Made by a program: the position numbers and the translations under genes. From Morinoia aosen (taxonomy: Eukaryota > Arthropoda > Malacostraca > Amphipoda > Talitridae), in contig CM059567.1 in NCBI GenBank assembly GCA_030386875.1, forward strand, positions 54,544,020 to 54,608,019: 64,000 nucleotides of DNA, given 5' to 3'. Every line of letters starts with the position of its first letter. Within the stretch, counting starts at the first letter, position 1. Below are positions 1,984-64,000 of this stretch, piece after piece. The notes beneath the pieces are model-generated. The model was not told where the DNA came from, ran no database searches, and saw only the letters and a list, made by a program, of their open reading frames with translations.

Positions 1984-2159
1984 ACGCGACGTCGAGCCTG
2001 GCCACGTCGGTCATGACTTTAGAGAGCGCAGGCCCTGACACCTCACACAGCACCGCCGCCCCGTTGTCCGACGCTCGAGCAGTGACGCGCGCCCTCGCTT
2101 CAGTCGCGCCGTTCCTGTGGATCGTCTCCGACGTAATTTCTTGCCCGCCCACTGAGATG
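1984..2159 (-). CDS. sns-like: Exon I: second half of Ig domain 5
   Basis: 176 bp, phase 2 at its start and phase 1 at its end. The acceptor is tttcctattccgtag|C and the donor GCGT|GTGAGTATC. Residues 471-528 read ISVGGQEITSETIHRNG, then VTARASDNGAAVLCEVSGP with the second Ig5 cysteine at 508, ending VARLDVA. The 'SDNxAxxxCE' pattern matches Sns Ig5 (SDNQAQYRCEAS). An alternative acceptor eight bases later (catctcag|TG) would be phase 1 and would not join exon H in frame, so the earlier one is preferred. The core Trp expected 13 residues after Cys 458 is Ile 471 here. The product continues beyond position 1 with a split codon starting in T. Confidence 0.86.
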
Positions 2160-4045: not shown

Positions 4046-4190
4046 CTCACACGATGGTATTCACCCTGCCCCACTCACACAATGGGATCCCCCCCGCCCC
4101 ACTCACACAATGGTATTCACCTTGCCCCACTCACATAATGGTATTCACCCTGCCCCACTCAGATAATGATATTCACCCCGCCCCACTCAC
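4046..4190 (-). repeat. 28-bp minisatellite copied from the exon H splice donor
   Basis: Exact 28-bp periodicity: on the plus strand the pentamer ctcac (or ctcag) starts at 4046, 4074, 4102, 4130 and 4158, then at 4186 where it is the genuine donor. On the coding strand each unit repeats the exon edge CCATTGT|GTGAGTGGGG. Units at 4130, 4102 and 4074 keep GTGAGT, the 4046 unit has GTGAGA, and the 4158 unit has lost the GT (CTGAGT). The array therefore begins exactly at the exon-intron boundary and runs into the intron, providing four copied donors. All lie downstream of the stop (TGA) that overlaps the real donor. Confidence 0.93.
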
Positions 4191-4302
4191 ACAATGGAGG
4201 GCGGTGGGTTGCCCCCCACGCTGGTGCAGATCACGGGAACGATGGAACCCTCAGGCACGGTTTGCTGGATGGCCTTGGCCAGCAGCGGTGGCCCAGGAGG
4301 TT
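4191..4302 (-). CDS. sns-like: Exon H: first half of Ig domain 5
   Basis: 112 bp, phase 1 at its start and phase 2 at its end. The acceptor is ttttccag|AA and the donor ATTGT|GTGAGTGG. Residues 434-469 read PPGPPLLAKAIQQTVPEGSIVPVICTSVGGNPPPSI with the first Ig5 cysteine at 458. The PPxPPL opening and GGNPP motif are those of Sns Ig5 (PPAPPLISGY ... SGGNPLATLTW). The exon is too short to stand out as an open frame and was found by reading upstream of the donor. Its last bases and the donor form the unit of a 28-bp tandem repeat continuing to 4046. The next codon after the donor would be TGA, so the exon cannot be extended. Confidence 0.9.
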
Positions 4303-10329: not shown

Positions 10330-11340
10330 CTTTCCCACTTTGCTTGGCGATGCACTATAAGATCTACGGACAATTAGCTATGGAGTTCCACCAGGATCTG
10401 TCCTTGGACCTCTTCTATTTTCAATCTTCATCAACGAAATAGTTAAATCTACTTCATTTTTTAAATTCATACTTTGTGCCGACGACAGCAAGCCCTCTAC
10501 TGCTCTTCCTAATGAAAATTTTATCTTAAATACGGAGACTAAACATAAGCTGCAAAAATTTCAATGTGGCTCTAAGCTAATGAAATAAGCTTCAGTATCT
10601 CTAATACAAAATACATTACAATCTCATTCAAGCGGAATGCGGCTCTTTTACGCAATAAGATTAGTAATGGTGAAATTGAAGAAAATATTTCCTGTACGCT
10701 CGTGGGCTTCATAATAGATGAACATCTGACCATCAAAGAGCATATTGCACATCTGATTACTAAATTATCAAAATCCGCAGGAATCCTCAATAAAGTAATA
10801 CTCGTAAATTAGTTACCTCAATAAACTTTAAAAATAACGTATTGAAGGCTTATTTCACCAATTTAAAACAACGGAATAGAAGCATGACACGGAACTGATA
10901 CAAAAAATGCTGATTTTTACGGCAAAAATAAAAATTATTGGAGAGGTAAGAAAATTAGAATATACGAATAACACTCACACAAATGATTCATTCAAAAGTT
11001 TAAAAGTACTTGAGCTTATGTGTCTCTAGAAGCACTCTACCTGTAATTTCATCTATAATACATTAACTCATGATCGTGACAAACACTCACAACAATTATT
11101 AACTGCACAAACAGGCCATCATGACCATATAACCAGAAATAGAAGTCAGTTCGTACTTCCTTATTATTCAAAAGCTCCGTCATAGCACAATATCCTCTTC
11201 ATTGGAATCAAGACTTGGAATTCAATCCCTGCTGAGATCCGTGAAAAGAGTTCTTCCAAAGCTTTCAAAACGAATCTAGAATCCGTATTTCTATCGAAAT
11301 ATTCATCCCATAAGGTAATCAAGTCAAATATTTTCTGCTA
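10330..11340 (+). mobile_element. Decayed non-LTR retrotransposon (CR1/Jockey-like reverse transcriptase 3' part)
   Basis: On the plus strand, 10367 onwards reads LRTISYGVPPGSVLGPLL in one frame, the G(V)P(Q)GS motif of non-LTR reverse transcriptases. FKFILCADDSK follows at about 10465-10497, where CADD stands for the usual F/YADD catalytic motif. After a stop and a frame change, 10600-10800 gives KYITISFKRNAALL, then IIDEHLTIKEHI and KLSKSAGILNKV, as in the connection region of these proteins. At about 11090-11280 come ITRNRSQFVLP and IKTWNSIPAEI, which match the usual C-terminal TRNR and WN(S/T)IP motifs. Several stops and frameshifts make it a non-functional fragment. The 5' part (endonuclease) and a 3' tail are not visible. 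Confidence 0.85.
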
Positions 11341-19140: not shown

Positions 19141-19655
19141 TTATACCAATAACCATATCCGTAGTTTTAAAACTAATTAATTCTCAAACTGAATTGTCCT
19201 TGTCGTTATTCCTCAGTCGCTTACAACTCAAACAAACTCAAACGTTTGAACGCTTGCAGTGGAAAGATGCAATTATTATAACTTTGAAATTTCAATTCAA
19301 TTTTTTTACCTTACAGAAATGCAATATACTGTAGCTATTGATTGGATACATACGTTCATTTTTGAGGGAATTACAAATTCGAGTTTACGACAGCACTTTA
19401 CGGTGTTGCCAATTGTGGTCATTTGTTGACGAAACCTTGTTTTTTTGTTTCAACTTCCTCACTCTGGCTCATAATAGGTGGCTGCTCATGGTCTCTAATT
19501 TTGAAAACCTCAAGAATTATGCGTTGGAAACTATCCTATTTTAACTTTTATTTTATTCATTTCCCTTCACAACAATGGCTTGAGGCTAAATCACACGCTA
19601 GAAACGTGGTAAACACACAAACCTGAGTATTTCTGCTCCCCACCATTCAGCCTAC

Positions 19656-20205
19656 TACGCTGCCACTCGCCGCTCACAGTTTACTTCTATCGCGCGTTCA
19701 TTCACAGCCCACTTCCACAACTTGAATGCTGACCGTTTACAGTCCACCTCCACTGTCCGCATACTAAACTTTCACAGTCCACTTCCACTGTCCGCACACT
19801 CACAGTTCACAGTCCACTTTCAGAACTTGAATACTGACCGAATACAGTCCACTTCTACTGCCCGCACACTTTCCATTCACAGTCCACTTCCACTGTCCGC
19901 ATGCGCACAGTTCACAGTCCACTTCCACTCTCCGTACATTCACCGTTCACAGTCCACTTCCACTCTCCGTACACTCACCGTTCACAGTCCACTTTCACTC
20001 TCCGTACACTCACCGTTCACAGTCCACTACTACTCTCCGTACACTCACCGTTCACAGTCCACTTCCACTGTCCACACACTCAAAGTTCTCAGTCCACTTC
20101 CACTCTCTGCACACTCACCGTTCACAGTCCGGTTCCACTGTCCGCACACTCACCGTTCACAGTCCACTTCTACTGTCCGCATCCTCACCGTTCACAGTCC
20201 ACTTC
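19656..20205 (-). repeat. 35-bp minisatellite copied from the exon F splice donor
   Basis: About 15 units of 35 bp, in register from 19656 to the exon. The last unit (20181-20205) straddles the exon edge, so its first 17 exonic bases on the coding strand (GAAGTGGACTGTGAACG) are coding and GTGAGG is the genuine donor. Units starting at 20146, 20111, 20041, 20006 and 19971 keep the junction as GAACG|GTGAGTGT. That matches the donor consensus (GTRAGT) better than the genuine GTGAGGAT. The unit at 20076 has lost it, the one at 19936 reads GTGAAT, and the one at 19796 reads AACT|GTGAGT. Units farther from the exon are more diverged. The 224-codon open frame on the plus strand is a by-product. Confidence 0.95.
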
Positions 20206-20308
20206 AAGGCCACAGAAGGGTTGGCGGCGGAGCTGCGGCAGATGAAGTCCACGGCCTGGTCCTCCGTGATGGACGACGGCCCGGAGATGTGCACGGCTCG
20301 AGCCGCGT
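20189..20308 (-). CDS. sns-like: Exon F: first half of Ig domain 4
   Basis: 120 bp, phase 1/1. The acceptor is ttttttgtggcaag|AC and the donor GAACG|GTGAGGAT. Residues 331-369 read AARAVHISGP, then AVDFICRSSAANPSVALKWTVN, with Cys 353 and core Trp 366. The shape is that of Sns Ig4 (APTHVTVMGP ... SNPPAEIKWMVGG). I chose this donor because it is the only one that joins in frame to exon G (KWTVNGEEV) and because reading on meets TGA before the next donor. The last 17 bases of the exon plus the donor are the seed of a 35-bp tandem repeat that continues for ~530 bp into the intron, so donor choice here is unusually crowded. Confidence 0.92.
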
Positions 20309-23374: not shown

Positions 23375-23716
23375 ACATGACAGAGAGCGTGACGTTATCA
23401 ATGAGCGGCCTGTCGAGCATATCGCTGTTAGCATGACACTCGACCGCAGCTCCATCGTCGTCTCCATCCAACTCAAACTCAACTTCACTCTTAATCTTGC
23501 GCGTGAGATGTCCCACCGGCAGCGGACGCTTGGGTGTCGAGATCCGATTACCATCACTCGCGGAAGACGGAGTGGCGAGTGCAATTCCTCGGCGGAACCA
23601 AGAAATGGTGGGCTGGGGGTTGCCTCCCGTCACGCGGCATGTGAGGTGCACCTTGTGGCCTGCCTTGCCGATGTCGTTCTTGGACCAGCCGCTCAGGGAT
23701 ATGGACACGGGTGGGT
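23375..23716 (-). CDS. sns-like: Exon E: complete Ig domain 3
   Basis: 342 bp, phase 1/1, the only Ig domain here in one exon. The acceptor is ctgtttgcag|AC and the donor ATGT|GTGAGT. It encodes residues 217-329: PPVSISLSGW linker and A strand, VHLTCRVTGGNPQPTISWF with Cys 242 and Trp 255, then a Ser/Pro/Lys-rich loop (about residues 263-285), then VEFELDGDDDGAAVECHA with the second cysteine at 309, ending NVTLSVM. An NVT glycosylation sequon sits at residue 323. GGNPxPxxxW is the common C-strand motif in this family (GGNPPAQLIWYKNG in Sns Ig3). An antisense open frame of similar extent is only a shadow of this exon. Confidence 0.92.
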
Positions 23717-26704: not shown

Positions 26705-29700
26705 GAGAGCGGTCGTGTTATTGCGTGGGAGCTGTCATGTTATTGTGTGGGAGCTGTCATGTTATTGTGAGGGAGCTGTCGTGTTATTGTGTGGGGGCTG
26801 TTGTGTTATTGTGTGGGAGCTGTCGTGTTATTGCGTGGGGGCTGTTGTGTTATTGTGTGGGAGCTGTCGTGTTATTGTGTGGGGGCTGTTGTGTTATTGT
26901 GTGGGAGCTGTCGTGTTATTGTGTGTGAGCAGTCATGTTATTGTGTGGGAGCTGTCGTGTTATTGTGTGGGGGCTGTTGTGATATTGTGTGGGAGCTGTC
27001 GTGTTATTGTGTGGGAGCTGTCGTGTTATTGTGTGGGAGCTGTCGTGTTATTGTGTGGGGGCTGTTGTGTTATTGTGTGTGAGCTGTCGTGTTATTGTGT
27101 GTGAGCTGTCGTGTTATTGTGTGGGAGCTGACGTGTTGTGTGGGAGCTGTCATGTTATTGTGTGGGAGCTGTTGTGTTATTGTGTGGGAGCTGTCATGTT
27201 ATTATGTGGGGGCTGTCGTGTTATTGTGTGGGAGCTGTCGTGTTATTGTGTGGGGGCTGTCATGTTATTGCGTGGGAGCTGTCGTGCTATTGTGCGGAGG
27301 CTGTCGTGTTATTGCGTGGGAGCTGTCATGTTATTGTGTGGGAGCTGTCGTGGTATTGTGCGGAGGCTGTCGTGTTATTGTGTGGGAGCTGTCGTGTTAT
27401 TGCGTGGGAGCTGTCATGTTATTGTGTGGGGGCTGTCGTGTTATTGTGTGGGAGCTGTCGTGTTATTGCGTGGGAGCTGCCATGTTATTGTGTGGGGGCT
27501 GTCGTGTTATTGTGTGGGAGCTGTCGTGTTATTGCGTGGGAGCTGTCATGTTATTGTGTGGGGGCTGTCATGTTATTGTGTGGGGGCTGTCATGTTATTG
27601 CGTGGGAGCTGTCATGTTATTGTGTGGGAGCTGTCGTGTTATTGTGTGGGAGCTGTCGTGTTATTGTGTGTGAGCTGTCATGTTATTGTGTGAGAGCTGT
27701 TGTGTTGTGGTGTGGGAGCTGTTGTGTTATTGTGTGGGAGCTGTCGTGTTATTGTGTGGGAGCTGTCATGTTATTGTGTGGGAGCTGTCGTGTAATTGTG
27801 TGTGAGCTGTCATGTTATTGTGTGGGAGCTGTCGTGTTATTGTGTGGGAGCTGTTGTGTTATTGTGTGGGAGCTGTTGTGTTGTGTGGGAGCTGTCGTGT
27901 CATTGTGTGGGAGCTGTCGTGTTATTGTGTGGGAGCTGTCGTGTTATTGTGTGGGAGCTGTCATGTTATTGTGTGGGGGCTGTCGTTTTATTGTTTGGGA
28001 GCTGTCGTGTTATTGTGGGGGGCTGTTGTGTTATTGCGTGGGAGCTGTCATGTTATTGTGTGGGAGCTGTCGTTTTATTGTTTGGGAGCTGTCGTGTTAT
28101 TGTGTGGGGGCTGTCGTGTTATTGTGTGGGAGCTGTCGTGTTATTGTGTGGGAGCTGTCATGTTATTGTGTGGGGGCTGTTGTGTTATTGTGTGGGGGCT
28201 GTCGTGTTATTGCGTGGGCGCTGTCATGTTATTGTGTGGGAGCTGTCGTTTTATTGTTTGGGGCTGTCATGTTATTGTGTGGGAGCTGTCGTGTTATTGT
28301 GTGGGAGCTGTCGTGTTATTGTGTGGGAGCTGTCATGTTATTGTGTGGGAGCTGTCGTTTTATTGTTTGGGAGCTGTCGTGTTATTGTGTGGGAGCTGTC
28401 GTGTTATTGTGTGGGAGCTGTCGTTTTATTGTTTGGGAGCTGTCGTTTTATTTTTTGGGAGCTGTCGTGTTATTGTGTGGGAGCTGTCGTGTTATTGTGT
28501 GGGAGCTGTCGTTTTATTGTTTGGGAGCTGTCATGTTATTGTGTGGGAGCTGTCGTGTTATGGCGTGGGAGCTGTCATGTTATTGTGTGGGAGCTGTCGT
28601 TTTATTGTGTGGGAGCTGTCGTGTTATGGCGTGGGAGCTGTCATGTTATTGTGTGGGAGCTGTCATGTTATTGTGTGGGAGCTGTCGTTTTATTGTTTGG
28701 GAGCTGTCGTGTTATGGCGTGGGAGCTGTCATGTTATTGTGTGGGAGCTGTCGTTTTATTGTTTGGGAGCTGTCGTGTTATGGCGTGGGAGCTGTCATAA
28801 TATTGTGTGGGAGCTGTCGTTTTATTGTTTGGGAGCTGTCGTGTTATGGCGTGGGAGCTGTCATGTTATTGTGTGGGAGCTGTCGTTTTATTGTTTGGGG
28901 GCTGTCATGTTATTGTGTGGGAGCTGTCGTGTTATTGTGTGGGAGCTGTCGTGTTATTGTGTGGGAGCTGTCATGTTATTGTGTGGGAGCTGTCGTTTTA
29001 TTGTTTGGGAGCTGTCGTGTTATTGTGTGGGAGCTGTCGTGTTATTGTGTGGGAGCTGTCGTTTTATTGTTTGGGAGCTGTCGTTTTATTTTTTGGGAGC
29101 TGTCGTGTTATTGTGTGGGAGCTGTCGTGTTATTGTGTGGGAGCTGTCGTTTTATTGTTTGGGAGCTGTCATGTTATTGTGTGGAAGCTGTCGTGTTATG
29201 GCGTGGGAGCTGTCATGTTATTGTGTGGGAGCTGTCGTTTTATTGTGTGGGAGCTGTCGTGTTATGGCGTGGGAGCTGTCATGTTATTGTGTGGGAGCTG
29301 TCATGCTATTGTGTGGGAGCTGTCGTTTTATTGTTTGGGAGCTGTCGTGTTATGGCGTGGGAGCTGTCATGTTATTGTGTGGGAGCTGTCGTTTTATTGT
29401 TTGGGAGCTGTCGTGTTATGGCGTGGGAGCTGTCATAATATTGTGTGGGAGCTGTCGTTTTATTGTTTGGGAGCTGTCGTGTTATGGCGTGGGAGCTGTC
29501 ATGTTATTGTGTGGGAGCTGTCGTTTTATTGTTTGGGAGCTGTCGTGTTATGGCGTGAGAGCTGTCATGTTATTGTGTGGGAGCTGTCGTGTTATTGTGT
29601 GGGAGCTGTCATGTTATTGTGTGGGAGCTGTCGTTTTATTGTTTGGGAGCTGTCGTGTTATGGCGTTGGAGCTGTCATGTTATTGTGTGGGAGCTGTCGT

Positions 29701-30660
29701 TTTATTGTGTGGGAGCTGTCGTGTTATGGCGTGGGAGCTGTCATGTTATTGTGTGGGAGCTGTCGTTTTATTGTTTGGGAGCTGTCGTGTTATGGCGTGG
29801 GAGCTGTCATGTTATTGTGTGGGGGCTGTTGTGTTATTGTGTGGGGGCTGTTGTGTTATTGTGTGGGGGCTGTTGTGTTATTGTGTGGGGGCTGTTGTGT
29901 TATTGTGTGGGGGCTGTTGTGTTATTGTGTGGGGGCTGTCATGTTATTGTGTGGGGGCTGTCATTTTATTGTGTGGGAGCTGTCATGTTATTGTGTGGGG
30001 GCTGTTGTGTTGTTGTGTGGGGGCTGTTGTGTTATTGTGTGGGAGCTGTAATGTTATTGTGTGGGGGCTGTTGTGTTATTGTGTGGGAGCTGTCGTGTTA
30101 TTGTGTGGGAGCTGTCATGTTATTGTGTGGGGGCTGTTGTGTTGTTGTGTGGGGACTGTTGTGTTATTACGTGGGAGCTGTCATGTTATTGTGTGGGGGC
30201 TGTTGTGTTATTGTGTAGGGGCTGTTGTGTTATTGTGTGAGGACTGTTGTGTTATTGCGTGGGAGCTGTCGTGTTATTGTGTGGGAGCTGTCGTGTTATT
30301 GCGTGGGAGCTGTCATGTTATTGCGTGGGAGTTGTCGTGTTATTGCGTGGGAGCTGTCATGTTATTGCGTGGGAGTTGTCGTGTTATTGCGTGGGAGCTG
30401 TCATGTTATTGCGTGGGAGCTGTCATGTTATTGCGTGGGAGCTGTCGTGTTATTGCGTGGGAGCTGTCATGTTATTGCGTGGGAGTTGTCGTGTTATTGC
30501 GTGGGAGCTGTCATGTTATTGCGTGGGAGCTGTCGTGTTATTGTGTGGGAGCTGTCATGTTATTGCGTTTGAGTTGTCGTGTTATTGCGTGAAGGCTGTC
30601 GTGTTGTTGCGTGGGAGCTGTCGTGTTATAATGGGGAGCTGTCATGTTATTGTGTATGAG
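26705..30660. repeat. 4-kb minisatellite of a 22-bp unit, about 180 copies
   Basis: The unit consists of tgtgggagctg followed by tcgtgttattg, with few indels over ~3.95 kb. Variants are in the minority and recur in order: gggagctg/gggggctg, tcgtg/tcatg/ttgtg/tcgtt, and ttattgtg/ttattgcg/ttatggcg. A higher-order duplication is visible: two rare marks, tcgttttattttttggg (28443 and 29081) and tcataatattg (28795 and 29433), recur at an offset of exactly 638 bp, which is 29 units. The unit has no stop in any plus-strand frame and 22 is not a multiple of three, so all three plus frames stay open for hundreds of codons with one peptide repeating every 22 residues. The minus strand meets TAA regularly. 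The open frames (up to 926 codons) are therefore not evidence of a gene. Confidence 0.97.
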
Positions 30661-41662: not shown

Positions 41663-42629
41663 TAACACTATATAAGATACTTAAAAAGTACAGTATACAT
41701 TCATGAAGCTTTCAGTTCCATTAGACGCTGACATCGAGGCACGAAGCTGCAATCATGATAGGTATCAGGGATATAAATTTGTAATTAACCTGTCAACCTT
41801 CAACTGAAGGTAAAAATTGAGTTCCAGAGCCTGTGGCACTGAATCAGATAAAGTTCAATATCGAATTAAGGCTTGCGATTACGACACCAACACTTTCATT
41901 AAAGTTCGAGGTCGAAGGAAATCGTGGAATCAAACTTGGAGTAAGAATACGCTTACATGAACAAGCACAAAGAAGACAATTCGATTACTGAGGTGTAAAG
42001 GTGACTGAGGGAAGGAACATTCGCTGTATCTATGCTTGTTTAAACAATATAAAACTCTCCCTCCTGTGCAGCGTACACGTACACAGGAAAATTGTTCATC
42101 CACTTTTGAAAAGCTTGAATAGAGAGTCGCCTTCGATGCGTAGAACACAAGACTGATATAGCTGGATTTAAGGGACTCTTCCAGAGATAATAGCAGAATG
42201 ACTACAAAGGCGAACGTAGCGCTGGTAATTAAAGATTAAACGAAAAATTCACGAGTTCTCTCACTTGAGAAAATCTTACGAAGGTGAGAATTTATTTTCA
42301 ATGATAATGTGCAGGATTGACACTTAGCTGAGGAACTATTGATATCGTAGTGCTTGGATTCATCTAAAAACGGCTGTTGCTGAAACAGCAACAAAACGTT
42401 CTCAAAACATCAAATACAAAAGGTACGCCGAAAAAAATTCACAACGAAATTTTCAAGGCTTAAAAAGAAAATATATGAATAACCATGGCAATAGAATCAC
42501 AAACACATTTTTCATGAGACGTTCATAGACTAGGCATTTCAATACAAAATACCCGCTGAACAACGAGCGTCGTATCAAAACTAAAACTCATCAAGTAGAT
42601 ACTTTGAGGCACTTTCAAGCTTGAGACTG

Positions 42630-42990
42630 AATACAGAGCAAATAACTAACGGCACACAGAGCCAATAAGTGACCAGAGAAGCATAGCAAATAACCAACTG
42701 AACACAGAGCAAAATGTACCTGAACACCTAGCGAATGACTAATTGAAACAGAGCGACTAACTAATTGAAACAGAGCCACTAACTAATTGAAACAGAGCGA
42801 ATAAGTGAACGCAGAGCACATAAGTGACCAGAGAAGCAGAGCAAATAACTAACTGAACACAGAGCAAATAAGTACCTGAACACCTAGCAAACAAGTAACT
42901 GAACACAGAGCAAATCAGTACCTGAACACCTAGCTAACAACAACTGAACGCAGAACCAATTAGTGAGCACAGAATCAAAAGCTACCAGAA
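42630..42990. repeat. Degenerate acagagcaaata repeat next to the exon D donor
   Basis: About fifteen occurrences of gaacacagagcaaataa-type motifs alternating with agtacctgaacacctagc and agtgaccagagaagc, with spacing near 23-25 bp and some multi-unit duplications. The array ends about 20-40 bp from the exon D donor, but the donor sequence itself is not part of the unit. Confidence 0.8.
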
Positions 42991-43008
42991 AAGCAGCGCG
43001 GGACTCAC

Positions 43009-43188
43009 GCAGCACGGAGAGAGTGACGGAGGCGACGAGGGCGGTGGTGGCGTCCCTCAGCGCGGGATGGCCGCCCCTGCACGAGTACTGCTGGCCGTCG
43101 TCCTCAGCGCGCGCCGTCACGTGCAGGCGGCTCGCCAGCGTCACCAGCCGCCGCTTGCTGCCTGTCTCCTCGTGGTCCTCCTGCTGGC
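43009..43188 (-). CDS. sns-like: Exon D: second half of Ig domain 2
   Basis: 180 bp, phase 1/1. The acceptor is ccccacaccgcag|GC, with a poor pyrimidine tract, and the donor CTGC|GTGAGT. It encodes residues 157-215: a charged loop (QQEDHEETGSKRR), then TLASRLHVTARAEDDGQQYSC with the second Ig2 cysteine at 192, ending VASVTLSVL. GC content is much higher than in the flanking introns. The acceptor region (GCAG with the preceding CCCCAC) is duplicated 89 bp upstream at 43279, inside a tandem duplication of about 90 bp; 89 is not a multiple of three, so use of the copied acceptor would shift frame. The split codon at the 3' end joins exon E to give His-Pro-Pro, the usual inter-domain linker. Confidence 0.9.
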
Positions 43189-43385
43189 CTGCGGTGTGGG
43201 GTCGCGAGTGGTTCTCACTTGATGTGTATACGAACAAACATCATATTTGTGACATGATTTATACACAAAACGCTGACCTGCGGTGGGGTTGCGAGCAGTG
43301 GTTCTTACATGATTTATATACGAACAAAGAGATTAACCATGATTTATATACGAACTGAAGAGCATATTAATGAAATGATTTATAC
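43182..43385 (-). repeat. Tandem duplication carrying a copy of the exon D acceptor
   Basis: The segment from the first bases of exon D into the intron (plus strand gctggcctgcggtgtgggg ... ggttctcact ... tatacgaacaaa ... gatttatacacaaaac) is followed by a second, slightly diverged copy (gctgacctgcggtggggtt ... ggttcttacat ... tatatacgaacaaa ... gatttatacacaaaac). On the coding strand both give CCCCAC(AC)CGCAG|G(C/T)CAGC: the genuine acceptor AG is at 43190-43189 and the copy at 43279-43278. The gatttatatacgaac core is itself repeated further in the second copy. Confidence 0.88.
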
Positions 43386-50319: not shown

Positions 50320-50613
50320 TTCGACACTAGTAACGCAGATATATTGTGCAGGTATGAAGTGTTAGATATCCCTACCCACGCAGCTACAAAAGAAAAACTC
50401 TCTCTACAATGACGTGGTTCACCCACTGGAGTCAATGCGCAGTCCGTCTCTGTACCATTGACGAGGTTCGACACCAATAACGCAGCTACATATATTGTAC
50501 TGGTATTAGGAGTTAGATATCTCTACCACTCAGTAACAAAAGAAAAACTCTCTCCACAGAAACGTGGTGCACCCACTGGAGTCAATGCGCAGTCCGTCTC
50601 TGTACCAGGTGAC
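50320..50613 (-). repeat. ~150-bp tandem duplication including the exon C donor
   Basis: The two copies share ttcgacac(t/c)a(g/a)taacgcag, then gttagatatc, then acaaaagaaaaactctct, then acccactggagtcaatgcgc. The offset grows from 147 to 150 bp because of small indels. The exonic part shared by both is 31 bp (WYRDGLRIDS plus one base), with the donor CCA|GTGGGT identical. The exon-like copy sits at 50427-50457, with its donor GT at 50426-50425. Confidence 0.92.
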
Positions 50614-50729
50614 AGAGGGAGCAGGCCGCGCGTCCACCACCCGACACTCCAGCGACAGCGACGAGCCTTGGATGAGCTCCACCACGGCGTCGTCCCGCCA
50701 CCCCACGATGCTGATGCCGCTCGGGGGCA
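50577..50729 (-). CDS. sns-like: Exon C: first half of Ig domain 2
   Basis: 153 bp, phase 1/1. The acceptor is ctcttgttgaag|TG. The donor is TCCA|GTGGGT, weaker than its neighbours but the one that fits phase 1 at exon D. It encodes residues 106-155: PPSGISIVGW, then LSLECRV with the first Ig2 cysteine at 133, then SVTWYRDGLRIDS with the core Trp at 146. VPPSxIxI is how Ig2 opens in Sns. The last ~31 exonic bases and the donor are repeated 150 bp further into the intron (exon-like copy at 50427-50457). Reading past the genuine donor meets a stop after 16 codons, before the copied donor, so an isoform using the copy would be truncated within Ig2. Confidence 0.9.
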
Positions 50730-54555: not shown

Positions 54556-54735
54556 CAAGCACAGTGACGGTGGCGGAAGCCCAAATGGGCGTAGCAACGG
54601 CCGTAGGTCCCACTTGGCACTGGTACTCGCCGTCGTCCTGCAGCGTGACGCCGGTGATGACCAAGTAGTGCTCCCCGATGCTGGAGTCTCCAGTGTACCT
54701 GTAGCGCGGGTAGCCCGGCACTCCTCGCTCGAACC
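54556..54735 (-). CDS. sns-like: Exon B: second half of Ig domain 1
   Basis: 180 bp, phase 1/1. The acceptor is tttctctag|GG and the donor CTTG|GTAGGC. Joined to exon A it reads FALG-FERGVPGYPRY, with the same spacing as Drosophila Sns between FALG and PG(F/Y)PRY. Residues 46-104 contain LVITGVTLQDDGEYQCQVGP, the F-strand signature with the second Ig1 cysteine at residue 84, and end in ASATVTVL, the G strand. This is the best single stretch for family assignment. The first split codon completes a Gly and the last begins a Val that continues as VPPSG in exon C. The intron side of the acceptor (54750 upward) holds two to three diverged copies of a ~115-bp tandem repeat. Confidence 0.92.
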
Positions 54736-60914: not shown

Positions 60915-61046
60915 CAAGAGCAAAGCCGTCTTTGGTCCACTGAGCCTTGCCCTGCTGGTAGTCGACAGCGCAGCGCAGCGTGACACTGCTGCCCTCCGCC
61001 GCCAGCACGCTCTCCGGCACCTCTCTGAACTGCTGGCCCGGCTCCT
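60915..61046 (-). CDS. sns-like: Exon A: first half of Ig domain 1
   Basis: 132 bp, phase 1 at both ends. The acceptor follows a GT-rich tract (gtgtgcag) and the donor is CTTG|GTAAGT, a full consensus. It encodes residues 2-44 of the window product: EPGQQFREVPESV at the start, the first Ig cysteine at residue 26, the core Trp at 37, and QWTKDGFALG running to the exon edge. The QQF...P opening and the TKDGFALG stretch are typical of the membrane-distal, ligand-binding V-type domain of Sns/Hibris/Nephrin. The first codon is split (only its last two bases, AG, lie here), so an upstream exon encoding the signal peptide must exist; I found none up to position 64000. A 21-bp minisatellite starts about 20 bp upstream of the acceptor. 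Confidence 0.92.
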
Positions 61047-64000
61047 CTGCACACACACACGTGCTCGTCAGTGAGCTGCATGTCAGTGAGTGACTGCACA
61101 TCAGTGAGTGACGCGTGTACGTCAGTCAATGACGCGTGCACGCCAGTGAATAACGCGTACACGTTAGTGAGTGATGCATGTACGTCAGTGAATGACGCGT
61201 GTACGTCAGTGAATGACGCGTGTACGTCATTGAATGACGCGTGCACGTCAGTGAATGACGCGTGCACGTCAGTGAGTGACGCATACACGTTAGTGAATGA
61301 CTCGTGCACGTCAGTGAATGACTCCTGCACGTCAGTGAATGACGCATGCACGTCTGTGAATGACGCATGCACGTCAGTGAATGACTCGTGGACGTCAGTG
61401 AATGACTCGTGCATGTCGGTGAATGACGCGTGCACGTCAGTGAATGACACACGGTAGAGAATCAATTGCATGATACTGGCGCACGTACGTGAAGCGTGTG
61501 ATATTGGCGCCATTGATGACAGTATTCTTTAGAACCTTATCATCACAGAATGAGAGGATATGAAGAAGTGATAATTGTCCTGCCATTTAAACTTGTACGT
61601 TTGAGTGACTAATATTTTTATTTTTTTCTATTATTTCAACCCATTTTCAACTCGCGCTTATTGGCGGTAATAGAAGGTTATTATCAAATGAATGTCAACC
61701 AAACGCTAGCTTCAAAGCTTAGTTTTGTGTAACAATAATGTATGATATTTTTGTTTGATGTTTTCCGCTTGAAATAAATCCATCAAAATATTTTTTAACA
61801 GATTTTGTAAAGTCCTGCAGAAGAGTTTACAAAATAAATTGCTTTTGCAAATTTTCCTTTGTAAATACCAATCGAGAAAGGCTTCACTTTGAGCTAAGGT
61901 CGAATACTCACTGTTTTACATTCGATATGGCAAATGAAAATTTTTCTCTAGGAATACAGTTATGAAAGCAAATACATTATTGATCCGCATCAACGAGGAG
62001 CAGTATTAATTCAATAATTTGTGCTAGAATCTCAAATGAGCAATGAATAATTATTCTCGTAAAAGTCAGCCATGGATTTATTTTCTATAAGTCATTGCTA
62101 GAATCCTCATGAAAATGCTATCACACATTGACGAAGATTTACTGTACGCTTTAGCGGTGCTTTAATGCGTGTGAAGGCTTAACATCTCAAGCACCTCACG
62201 ATTACTGAAGATATTGCGCACTGAAAGACCTAATGAATTCCTCACTTTCCCCAAACATAAATTGTTAGGGAAAGTTAAAAATTATAGGCGACGTCATTTC
62301 AGTTGAGTTTGCAAGAAAATGACGTTTAAAATCCCGAACTTGTATAATGAGCGAAATTTAAAGCATGACAAAATAACAAACCGTTTCTCTCCCTAAATTG
62401 TCATTTTTACGATCGGCTGGAAATATTTACTCATTAGAAAACTTAAACTCGTAGAACTATTAATATCTGGTAGAGTCACAAAGTATATTCCTTTTTTAAC
62501 TACCTAATTCCAGAAAATTATCTCGATTTTGAAAAAATTTTCAATGCTGTGAAACATCATCAAGTGCTACACGATGCTGTCGCAAGGCCAGCCAGTGAAC
62601 AAGCAAAGATAGATGTCCGTGATGAACAGATACTGCCGAGGAGGAAGAAGATGAATGAAAACTATAGATCAGCTCTAAGAACTCATAAATCAAGTCAAAC
62701 AGGCTAAGTTGAAGCCCTTGAGTACATAAAAACATGTTTTTCTCTTCAGTCACCCATGTTGCCATTTGGTCTTAGCAAGCAAGAAGAGACACCTTCGTAT
62801 TAGCGTTAATCTAGTATCCAGTGCTATATATTTTTTGTGTATCGCCTTCACAAACTCTGTAAATAAAATTGCATCGGATGTGAAGTCTGTTAAATTAAAG
62901 CTGGACCCCACTCTCTTGAGCTTCATAGCACACACATGAAATGATTTTGCGTGAGATAAATTAGTAATCATAATATGAAGTTGAACATTTTAATATAAAT
63001 GCCACCAATTTGATGGGGCTGGAAAAAAAACATATCTTCAACAGTTAATCGTAAGAAATTCCTAGTTATTTTATTTCATTTAATTTCCTTTTTCTCGTAG
63101 ATGTATTTCCTTAGCCTAACAAAGCAGCTGTTAGCTGACAACTTCTATTTGAAGCAGGCTGCTTTATTTTATCATTCAGCGGCAAAGAGAATTCAAATGA
63201 TTCTCTCACTCGAAAGTAAAGTTTCTCAGAGCGACCACACTCCGGAAATCTAAGTAGCTTATTTAAATTATCGCGGTCCGTGCAAACAAACTAGAAAAGA
63301 AACAATTCCTGAGTAAAAGTCTCCGAAACTATGGCCTCTCTCACGTCCAGCTTATCAAGCATCGTACAAAGGAAAGATTCGAGAGACAGGGCCTACCCCT
63401 GAGCCTTGTACGGAGGCCTATCAAGTACACAAGGAAAGAAAAAGAATTCCAAGAGGCCGTGCAGTAAGCCATCGGGCGAGTCTTTTGTTAGAGCATAGCC
63501 GCTGCTGACGATAGCAAGGCTCCTTCTATCTCGCGACTGTGCCGCTGATATACAACCTCCGGTCCGGCGGTGGTTCACAGTTGGAGTCTACTGGATCGCT
63601 TGCTCTACGCCGCCTCCACGAGCTAAATTCTCAGACAATTTACAGTGTTGTCGTGGTACAGTCGACAGCGTAAGTTCTTCTGTTGACATGGCTATTCTAC
63701 GTGCTGTTTTTTTCTAGATAAAATCAGCATCTAGCAATTCTGATGGTCTGTCAGATGCTAACTGCTTGCTCTAATTTTTTGAGAAGCATCAAAGTTGGGG
63801 GCTTCAGTCTGAAAACGGCTAACGGCTTCTGTTTAACGGCTAAGTCAACAGAAAAACTTAATTTGCCAGTTCAAGCAGTGCAAATCACATTTTTTGAACA
63901 AACCGCATGACATGAAAATACAGTTTTTTAGATGCCTAAATATCATGATGGTATTTTGTATGCAGTTTCTTGTATCAACCTTGAAAAAACGGTCTCCGTT
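61047..64000 (-). other. Intron upstream of exon A, incomplete
   Basis: Phase 1. The 21-bp array lies next to the acceptor and AT-rich sequence follows. I looked for a signal-peptide exon ending in a donor after one codon base and found no convincing candidate. The 61- to 74-codon frames at 62541-62971 and 63393-63578 do not resemble one. 63380-63690 is less AT-rich, without recognised content. Confidence 0.7.
61066..61455. repeat. 21-bp minisatellite next to the exon A acceptor
   Basis: About 19 units of acgtcagtgaatgacgcgtg plus one base. Variants are gtgagtgacg, actcgtg and acgcatac. Since 21 is a multiple of three, a seven-residue repeat frame runs on both strands; these frames (128 and 200 codons) are not genes. 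The units nearest the exon become shorter and carry tgcag on the coding strand (atgtgcag and acatgcag), like the genuine acceptor gtgtgcag about 20 bp away. Confidence 0.93.

Follow-up and report, generated by a model that had tools for sequence, protein, structure and literature searches.

This analysis concerns a stretch of 64,000 nucleotides from the amphipod Morinoia aosen (GenBank assembly GCA_030386875.1, contig CM059567.1, positions 54,544,020 to 54,608,019 of the forward strand), called the window throughout, and a 35-bp tandem repeat on its minus strand, at the downstream end of an exon of an immunoglobulin (Ig) domain gene. The repeat unit spans the boundary between the exon and the following intron, and the splice donor of the exon is thereby repeated along the head of that intron. 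We think that the array is probably a mirage, i.e., a minisatellite-like tandem duplication of an exon–intron boundary, and not an evolved splicing switch. Seven exons of the gene were mapped, with borders set from AG/GT dinucleotides and reading frame. In the order of the gene they are the following, with the support for each in brackets:

60915..61046, minus strand: exon Ig1a (AG/GT and frame)
54556..54735, minus strand: exon Ig1b (frame, homology)
50577..50729, minus strand: exon Ig2a, whose own donor junction is duplicated (AG/GT and frame)
43009..43188, minus strand: exon Ig2b (AG/GT and frame)
23375..23716, minus strand: exon Ig3, which precedes Ig4a (frame, SYG-2 alignment)
20189..20308, minus strand: exon Ig4a, called exon F in a preliminary description of this DNA; 120 nt, phase 1-1, encodes the front half of Ig domain 4 (frame, splice sites, homology)
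1984..2151, minus strand: exon Ig4b, the next exon; phase 1-1, encodes the back half of Ig domain 4 (frame, Pfam match together with Ig4a)

All seven exons begin and end in phase 1; joined, they form one open frame of 424 amino acids with four Ig domains. In the PDB, the best match to Ig1-Ig2 is C. elegans SYG-2 (4ofy; E 3.5e-25, the best of 246 sequences), followed by KIRREL1 at 5.2e-16, and SYG-2 is again the best match, of 104 sequences, to Ig2-Ig4 (E 1.6e-21), followed by Robo2 at 6.2e-14. The SYG-2 alignment extends to the C and the W of exon Ig4a. Judged by best alignment, the host gene belongs to the nephrin family (SYG-2/Hibris/Sns-like). Members of this family also have more Ig domains than these four, together with a fibronectin type III domain and a membrane segment. 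Exon Ig4a, bordered by the acceptor GGCAAG/AC and the donor ACG/GTGAGGAT (the slash marks the splice point), is genuine on the grounds of frame, phase and homology. Together with Ig4b it matches the Pfam family C2-set_2 (6.5e-07) and so encodes the first half of this domain, with the array in the intron that follows; Ig4a with only its read-through tail matched no family in a Pfam search.

The array itself is made up of the following parts:

20171..20205, minus strand: unit 0, the 17-nt exon end and the genuine donor, with 18 intron bases in all (register cut)
19716..20170, minus strand: units 1-13, tandem copies of unit 0 (Tandem Repeats Finder, register cut, U1 pairing)
20157..20159, minus strand: in-frame TGA reached if the genuine donor is skipped, upstream of every copied donor (frame)
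19646..19715, minus strand: degenerate tail, in which units 14 and 15 match 17/35 and 13/35 bases (register cut)

Tandem Repeats Finder (TRF) calls the repeat at 19732-20205, with period 35, 13.5 copies, 81% matches and a score of 584, and its end at 19732 was extended by hand to 19716. Read on the minus strand, the 35-bp units begin at 20205 and continue to about 19716, where the degenerate tail to about 19646 follows; the preliminary description had taken the array to 19656, which is correct as far as about 19716 and beyond that point covers the tail. Its statement that the unit consists of the last 17 exon bases plus the donor is borne out by the register cut and by the reality of the 120-nt exon. 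The exon part of unit 0 is GAAGTGGACTGTGAACG, which covers part of the KWTVN codons plus the first base of the codon after them, and it leads into GTGAGGAT. Of the 13 further units, five (1, 2, 4, 5 and 6) carry an exact GAACG/GTGAGTGT, with first intron bases at 20153, 20118, 20048, 20013 and 19978. Unit 7 has GTGAATGT, unit 11 has ACT/GTGAGTGT, and in the remaining six the donor is changed. With a tandem unit that spans the exon–intron boundary, 13.5 minisatellite-like copies and splice signals in many, not all, of them, the array has the anatomy of a mirage and is classed as such. Since it repeats a donor, the motif GTRAGT is in excess far beyond chance, with six occurrences in the ~490-bp array and 16 in the remainder (17.5 kb) of the 18,037-bp intron. 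A 28-bp array in the same intron (window 4046-4197) also holds GTGAGT in its minus-strand unit; no known exon adjoins it.

The copies nearest the exon had been described as the best preserved, and this stands in part. Measured against the consensus, identity declines toward higher rank (Spearman −0.58, p 0.03, for 14 copies), a trend that rests on the degenerate far end (−0.44, p 0.23, for the first nine); measured against the exon unit, it has no clear trend (−0.37, p 0.19, for 14 copies; −0.02 for the first 12).

Pairing with the 5′ end of U1 gives −8.8 kcal/mol for the genuine donor and −11.3 kcal/mol for the five intact copies. Thus, the earlier claim that at least five copies are nearer the consensus than the donor of the exon is right for the window. 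When the genuine donor is skipped, the frame reads on through KWTVNGEDADSRSGL to a stop, i.e., EDADSRSGL and then the TGA, three bases ahead of the first copied donor. This stop, read at 20159-20157, precedes all copied donors, and the truncation expected in the preliminary description therefore holds for every copy. The same description concluded that a weak donor must be chosen over a ladder of better ones, and here we do not follow it. The gene's six other mapped donors pair at −5.8, −6.0, −6.3, −7.5, −7.7 and −10.2 kcal/mol, which makes even the weaker form of the genuine donor the second strongest of seven; moreover, the weakness amounts to a single base that differs between copies of the locus.

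These copies were found by searching the assembly (1.99 Gb in 29 contigs). With a two-unit query the array was detected at no fewer than three places, namely the window, contig C24 at 12.225 Mb and contig C12 at 53.020 Mb, and markers lying 20 kb away on one flank and 83 kb away on the opposite flank again gave hits at these three places, with their order preserved; the locus copies are thus collinear for 100 kb or more. After masking of tandem repeats, the flanks of the window are 99.4-100% identical to both others where compared, from about −13 to 5.4 kb and from 33 to 60 kb (for C12 at 53.0 Mb, only to 43 kb). Between them lies a more divergent block, 5528-32901, in which the masked window is 95-98% identical to the two others and these are 97.9-99.6% identical to each other; at two distant markers the C12 copy is again only 97-98% identical. 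The block contains exons Ig3 and Ig4a, the 35-bp array and a large 22-bp array. This last one, at window 26707-30655, has ~180 units in the window and 478 in the C24 copy, while the C12 copy has two such arrays, one with 575 units and one with 201. Of the coding parts, exon Ig4a is identical at 120/120 bases in all three locus copies, exon Ig3 has three genome copies at 99-100% with 1, 3 and 2 differences per 342 bases in the three pairs, and the protein of exon Ig4b is 100% identical in the two other locus copies.

The order of the 35-bp units is also the same in the three locus copies, except that the C12 copy is without unit 9, which is the kind of unit-number change seen in minisatellites. 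The resulting counts are 14, 14 and 13 units in these copies, which may be alleles or recent duplicates. Several Ig-domain loci elsewhere occur, among the matches listed, in equal-score pairs 0.4-3 Mb apart on one contig (e.g., C15:68911358 and C15:69762040), and because of these pairs unpurged haplotypes are likely to be present in the assembly. The locus copies also differ in the donor of exon Ig4a. In the C12 copy it reads ACG/GTGAGTAT, i.e., GTGAGT, and pairs with U1 at −11.3 kcal/mol, equal to the array copies, while the window and the C24 copy have GTGAGGAT. Hence the genuine donor is weaker than its copies in two locus copies and not in the third, and its weakness therefore comes down to one base in which haplotypes or recent duplicates differ, and is not a fixed design. 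Since the five intact copies have T at +6, and A at +7 is common to the three genuine sites, the simplest history would have a donor that was strong at first and then changed once, to G, in the form shared by the window and C24.

The divergence of the array was compared between locus copies in order to look for selection. Local alignment gives differences at 3/455, 6/420 and 6/420 sites in the three pairs, and block alignment gives 3/455, 5/385 and 5/385. A reading of the low value for the window and C24 as constraint (3/455 vs 101/4237 in the flanks) was considered and dropped, since windows of the same size are often as low. In this patchy block, 29%, 40% and 75% of 274 same-size windows outside the array diverge equally little or less in the three pairs. 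The divergence of the array is therefore within the range of the surrounding intron and gives no sign of selection for a switch; the earlier suggestion that the ladder serves as one is not supported.

Arrays of this kind have been described before. In amphioxus, mirages are reported for the globin genes BflGb6 and BflGb9 and for Adh3 as minisatellite-like tandem duplications of exon–intron boundaries (PMC3087553). They are found at both 5′ and 3′ boundaries, their unit number varies between haplotypes, units at the edges escape homogenisation, and reverse transcription PCR (RT-PCR) suggests that regular splicing is undisturbed; repeats spanning such boundaries are proposed there as a route to new introns (PMC3087553). 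As far as that account goes, the likeness to the present gene is close: many, not all, units carry splice signals, donor and acceptor boundaries are both affected, and the number of units varies, between haplotypes in amphioxus and between locus copies here. The unit length differs, being 35 bp here, 10-72 bp in amphioxus Adh3 and 150-160 bp in the amphioxus globins, and for amphioxus there are RT-PCR data on splicing. In human, internal tandem repeats occur at exon–intron boundaries of segmental duplicates, with possible new splice forms (PMC2812944). These repeats are likewise of minisatellite size and some of them lie at exon–intron boundaries of recently duplicated genes; by contrast, half of them are in coding exons, and the available part of that paper describes no donor ladder.

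A human minisatellite is reported, by the title of a 1995 paper, to provide several splice donors to a transcript, and the gene is said to be 6-16/IFI6. Going by that title, it supplies donors as the array does here, with the difference that here every copied donor follows a stop.

We consider the array to be a mirage grown from the boundary of exon Ig4a, with the copied donors as by-products and the genuine donor most likely in use, and on the sequence comparisons we would give this reading a probability of about 0.77. A 35-bp stretch across the boundary, made up of 17 exon bases from Ig4a and 18 intron bases that include the donor, would have been duplicated in tandem, and the array would then have grown to ~14 units through slippage or unequal exchange. 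The array is intronic save for its first 17 bases; the intron would absorb the copies, and the copied donors would simply reflect the birthplace of the repeat. The first donor would have been kept in use, as the one that belongs to the real exon, and splicing from a copy would presumably yield transcripts ending in EDADSRSGL and a stop, to be removed by nonsense-mediated decay.

Several points weigh against this reading. The mean consensus frequency over 13 copies is 0.93 in the exon-like columns, 0.86 in the donor and 0.80 in the rest, which could hint at constraint; of the seven sites that vary among copies, two are exon-like, none is in the donor and five are in the rest. Constraint, conversion from the exon and chance may each account for such column differences, and the numbers are too small to choose among them. 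A later paper cites the human donor minisatellite for interference with splicing. The weightiest objection comes from another gene. In DOK7, the stronger and intron-proximal one of two close donors makes the main transcript, and by this example the copied donors could win here as well.

For this reason the constant use of some copies at a low to moderate level, as unregulated noise, has to be taken as a serious rival. It overlaps with the mirage as we see it and differs in the amount of use. The strong U1 pairing of the copies, the human minisatellite as its title presents it, and DOK7, whose main transcript uses the intron-proximal donor, all speak for it, whereas the amphioxus globin RT-PCR and Adh3 data suggest that regular splicing goes on undisturbed next to such arrays; on balance we regard appreciable leakage as possible and somewhat doubtful. 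A regulated use of the copies would be a different matter, since it could lower the output of the gene through transcripts with a stop or yield a secreted protein cut short in Ig4. Every copied donor does lie after the TGA, five of them surpass the genuine donor of the window in U1 pairing, and the array is kept in three locus copies. A stop soon after a skipped donor is, however, expected by chance, the strength of the genuine donor varies between locus copies, and the comparison with 274 same-size windows (29%, 40% and 75% equally low or lower) reveals no constraint, and we therefore find a ladder of this kind unlikely.

The copies might also act unspliced. U1 acts against early polyadenylation, and a cluster of U1 sites close to the start of an intron of 18 kb could curb premature polyadenylation or aid the definition of the exon. 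The density of GTRAGT in the array agrees with such a landing pad, and so does the position of the intron's first two AATAAA (19557 and 19552) just past it. With 23 occurrences of AATAAA or ATTAAA in the intron (1.28 per kb) that position is unremarkable, and the array is without sign of constraint, so that we hold this function to be quite improbable. Improbable to a still higher degree is an origin of the array, or of its extra copies, in assembly collapse, expansion or unpurged haplotypes. The locus is indeed present three times and collinear over at least 100 kb, and other Ig loci come in equal-score pairs, as unpurged haplotypes would. These points concern the number of loci, whereas the three copies share their unit order and each has substitutions of its own. 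Misassembly of the array, which the preliminary description had named as what would speak against it, is thus unlikely; the only departure from the shared array is a single unit that one copy lacks.

What the locus offers, in our opinion, is a natural test of donor choice among near-identical neighbours, with a genuine donor that is GTGAGG or GTGAGT depending on the haplotype or duplicate. It also adds a case of a boundary-spanning repeat beside those of amphioxus and human (bioRxiv and most subscription papers lay outside the literature searched). The case is new and its kind already known from these two; it is not a new type of switch.

Other splice junctions of the gene are duplicated as well, and the seven mapped exons hold two duplicated donors and one partly duplicated acceptor. 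One more feature belongs here:

50320..50607, minus strand: two-copy duplication across the donor of exon Ig2a (self-comparison)

In it, 31 exon bases and GTGGGTG recur 150 bp downstream with 38/38 bases identical, which places a copied donor at 50426. This junction copy sits in an 85%-identical repeat and is found in 3/3 locus copies. The acceptor of Ig2b is partly duplicated ~90 bp upstream (43183-43238 is repeated at 43272-43328), including CAG and six exon nucleotides, five of them identical. Two further arrays come close to exons and leave the splice sites outside: a 21-bp array at 61070-61448 ends 24 bp from the Ig1a acceptor, and a 23-bp array at 42626-42954 ends 55 bp from the Ig2b donor by TRF, or 10 bp when its self-match to 42999 is included.

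Counting the tandem features that lie no more than 30 bp from an exon edge, a criterion chosen after seeing the data and thus to be read as a lead only, gives 6/20 vs 1.42 expected (P 5e-4) with hand-extended array ends (42954 to 42999 and 19732 to 19716), and 5/20 (P 0.003) when the ends given by TRF are kept. Counted by themselves, the 16 TRF arrays are not enriched (2/16 near an exon edge vs 1.21 expected, P 0.32), and the signal is therefore due to the four two-copy duplications; for overlap with an exon edge alone, 3/20 features give P 0.09.

Generality was assessed in 18 other stretches of the assembly, each of 2.4 kb and placed around an Ig-domain exon. They were hand-picked among the 150 matches listed, and no two of the 18 are alike at E 1e-10. 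One of the 18 (L046 1997-2242, at C10:16.43 Mb) has a 40-bp array of 6.2 copies with ACG/GTGAGT in each of six units. It begins 26 nt before a donor-like site that closes an Ig-bearing open frame, and the frame reads MPRR and a stop across the first donor; judging by its sequence, this may be a second mirage, or an array placed after a terminal stop, at the end of a protein and not at an exon junction. In two of the 18 (L054 509-1066 and L053 1391-1682), arrays begin ~11-16 nt past donors as read by eye. The other 15 stretches, in which exon edges were not mapped, have no repeat overlapping the Ig domain. It might be imagined that tandem duplications start preferentially at the exon–intron boundaries of this animal, so that ladders of spare donors accumulate, and that the present ladder could be a reservoir from which a damaged donor is replaced, or a U1 platform that spares a donor weakened by one base. 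We judge this to be improbable. A search of the genome for 7tm_6, intended as a test for a winged insect, gave no match; its controls gave none either, so that it carries no firm meaning.

The plus strand of the window has an open frame at 10361-10588, which by its motif looks like a piece of a retrotransposon reverse transcriptase.
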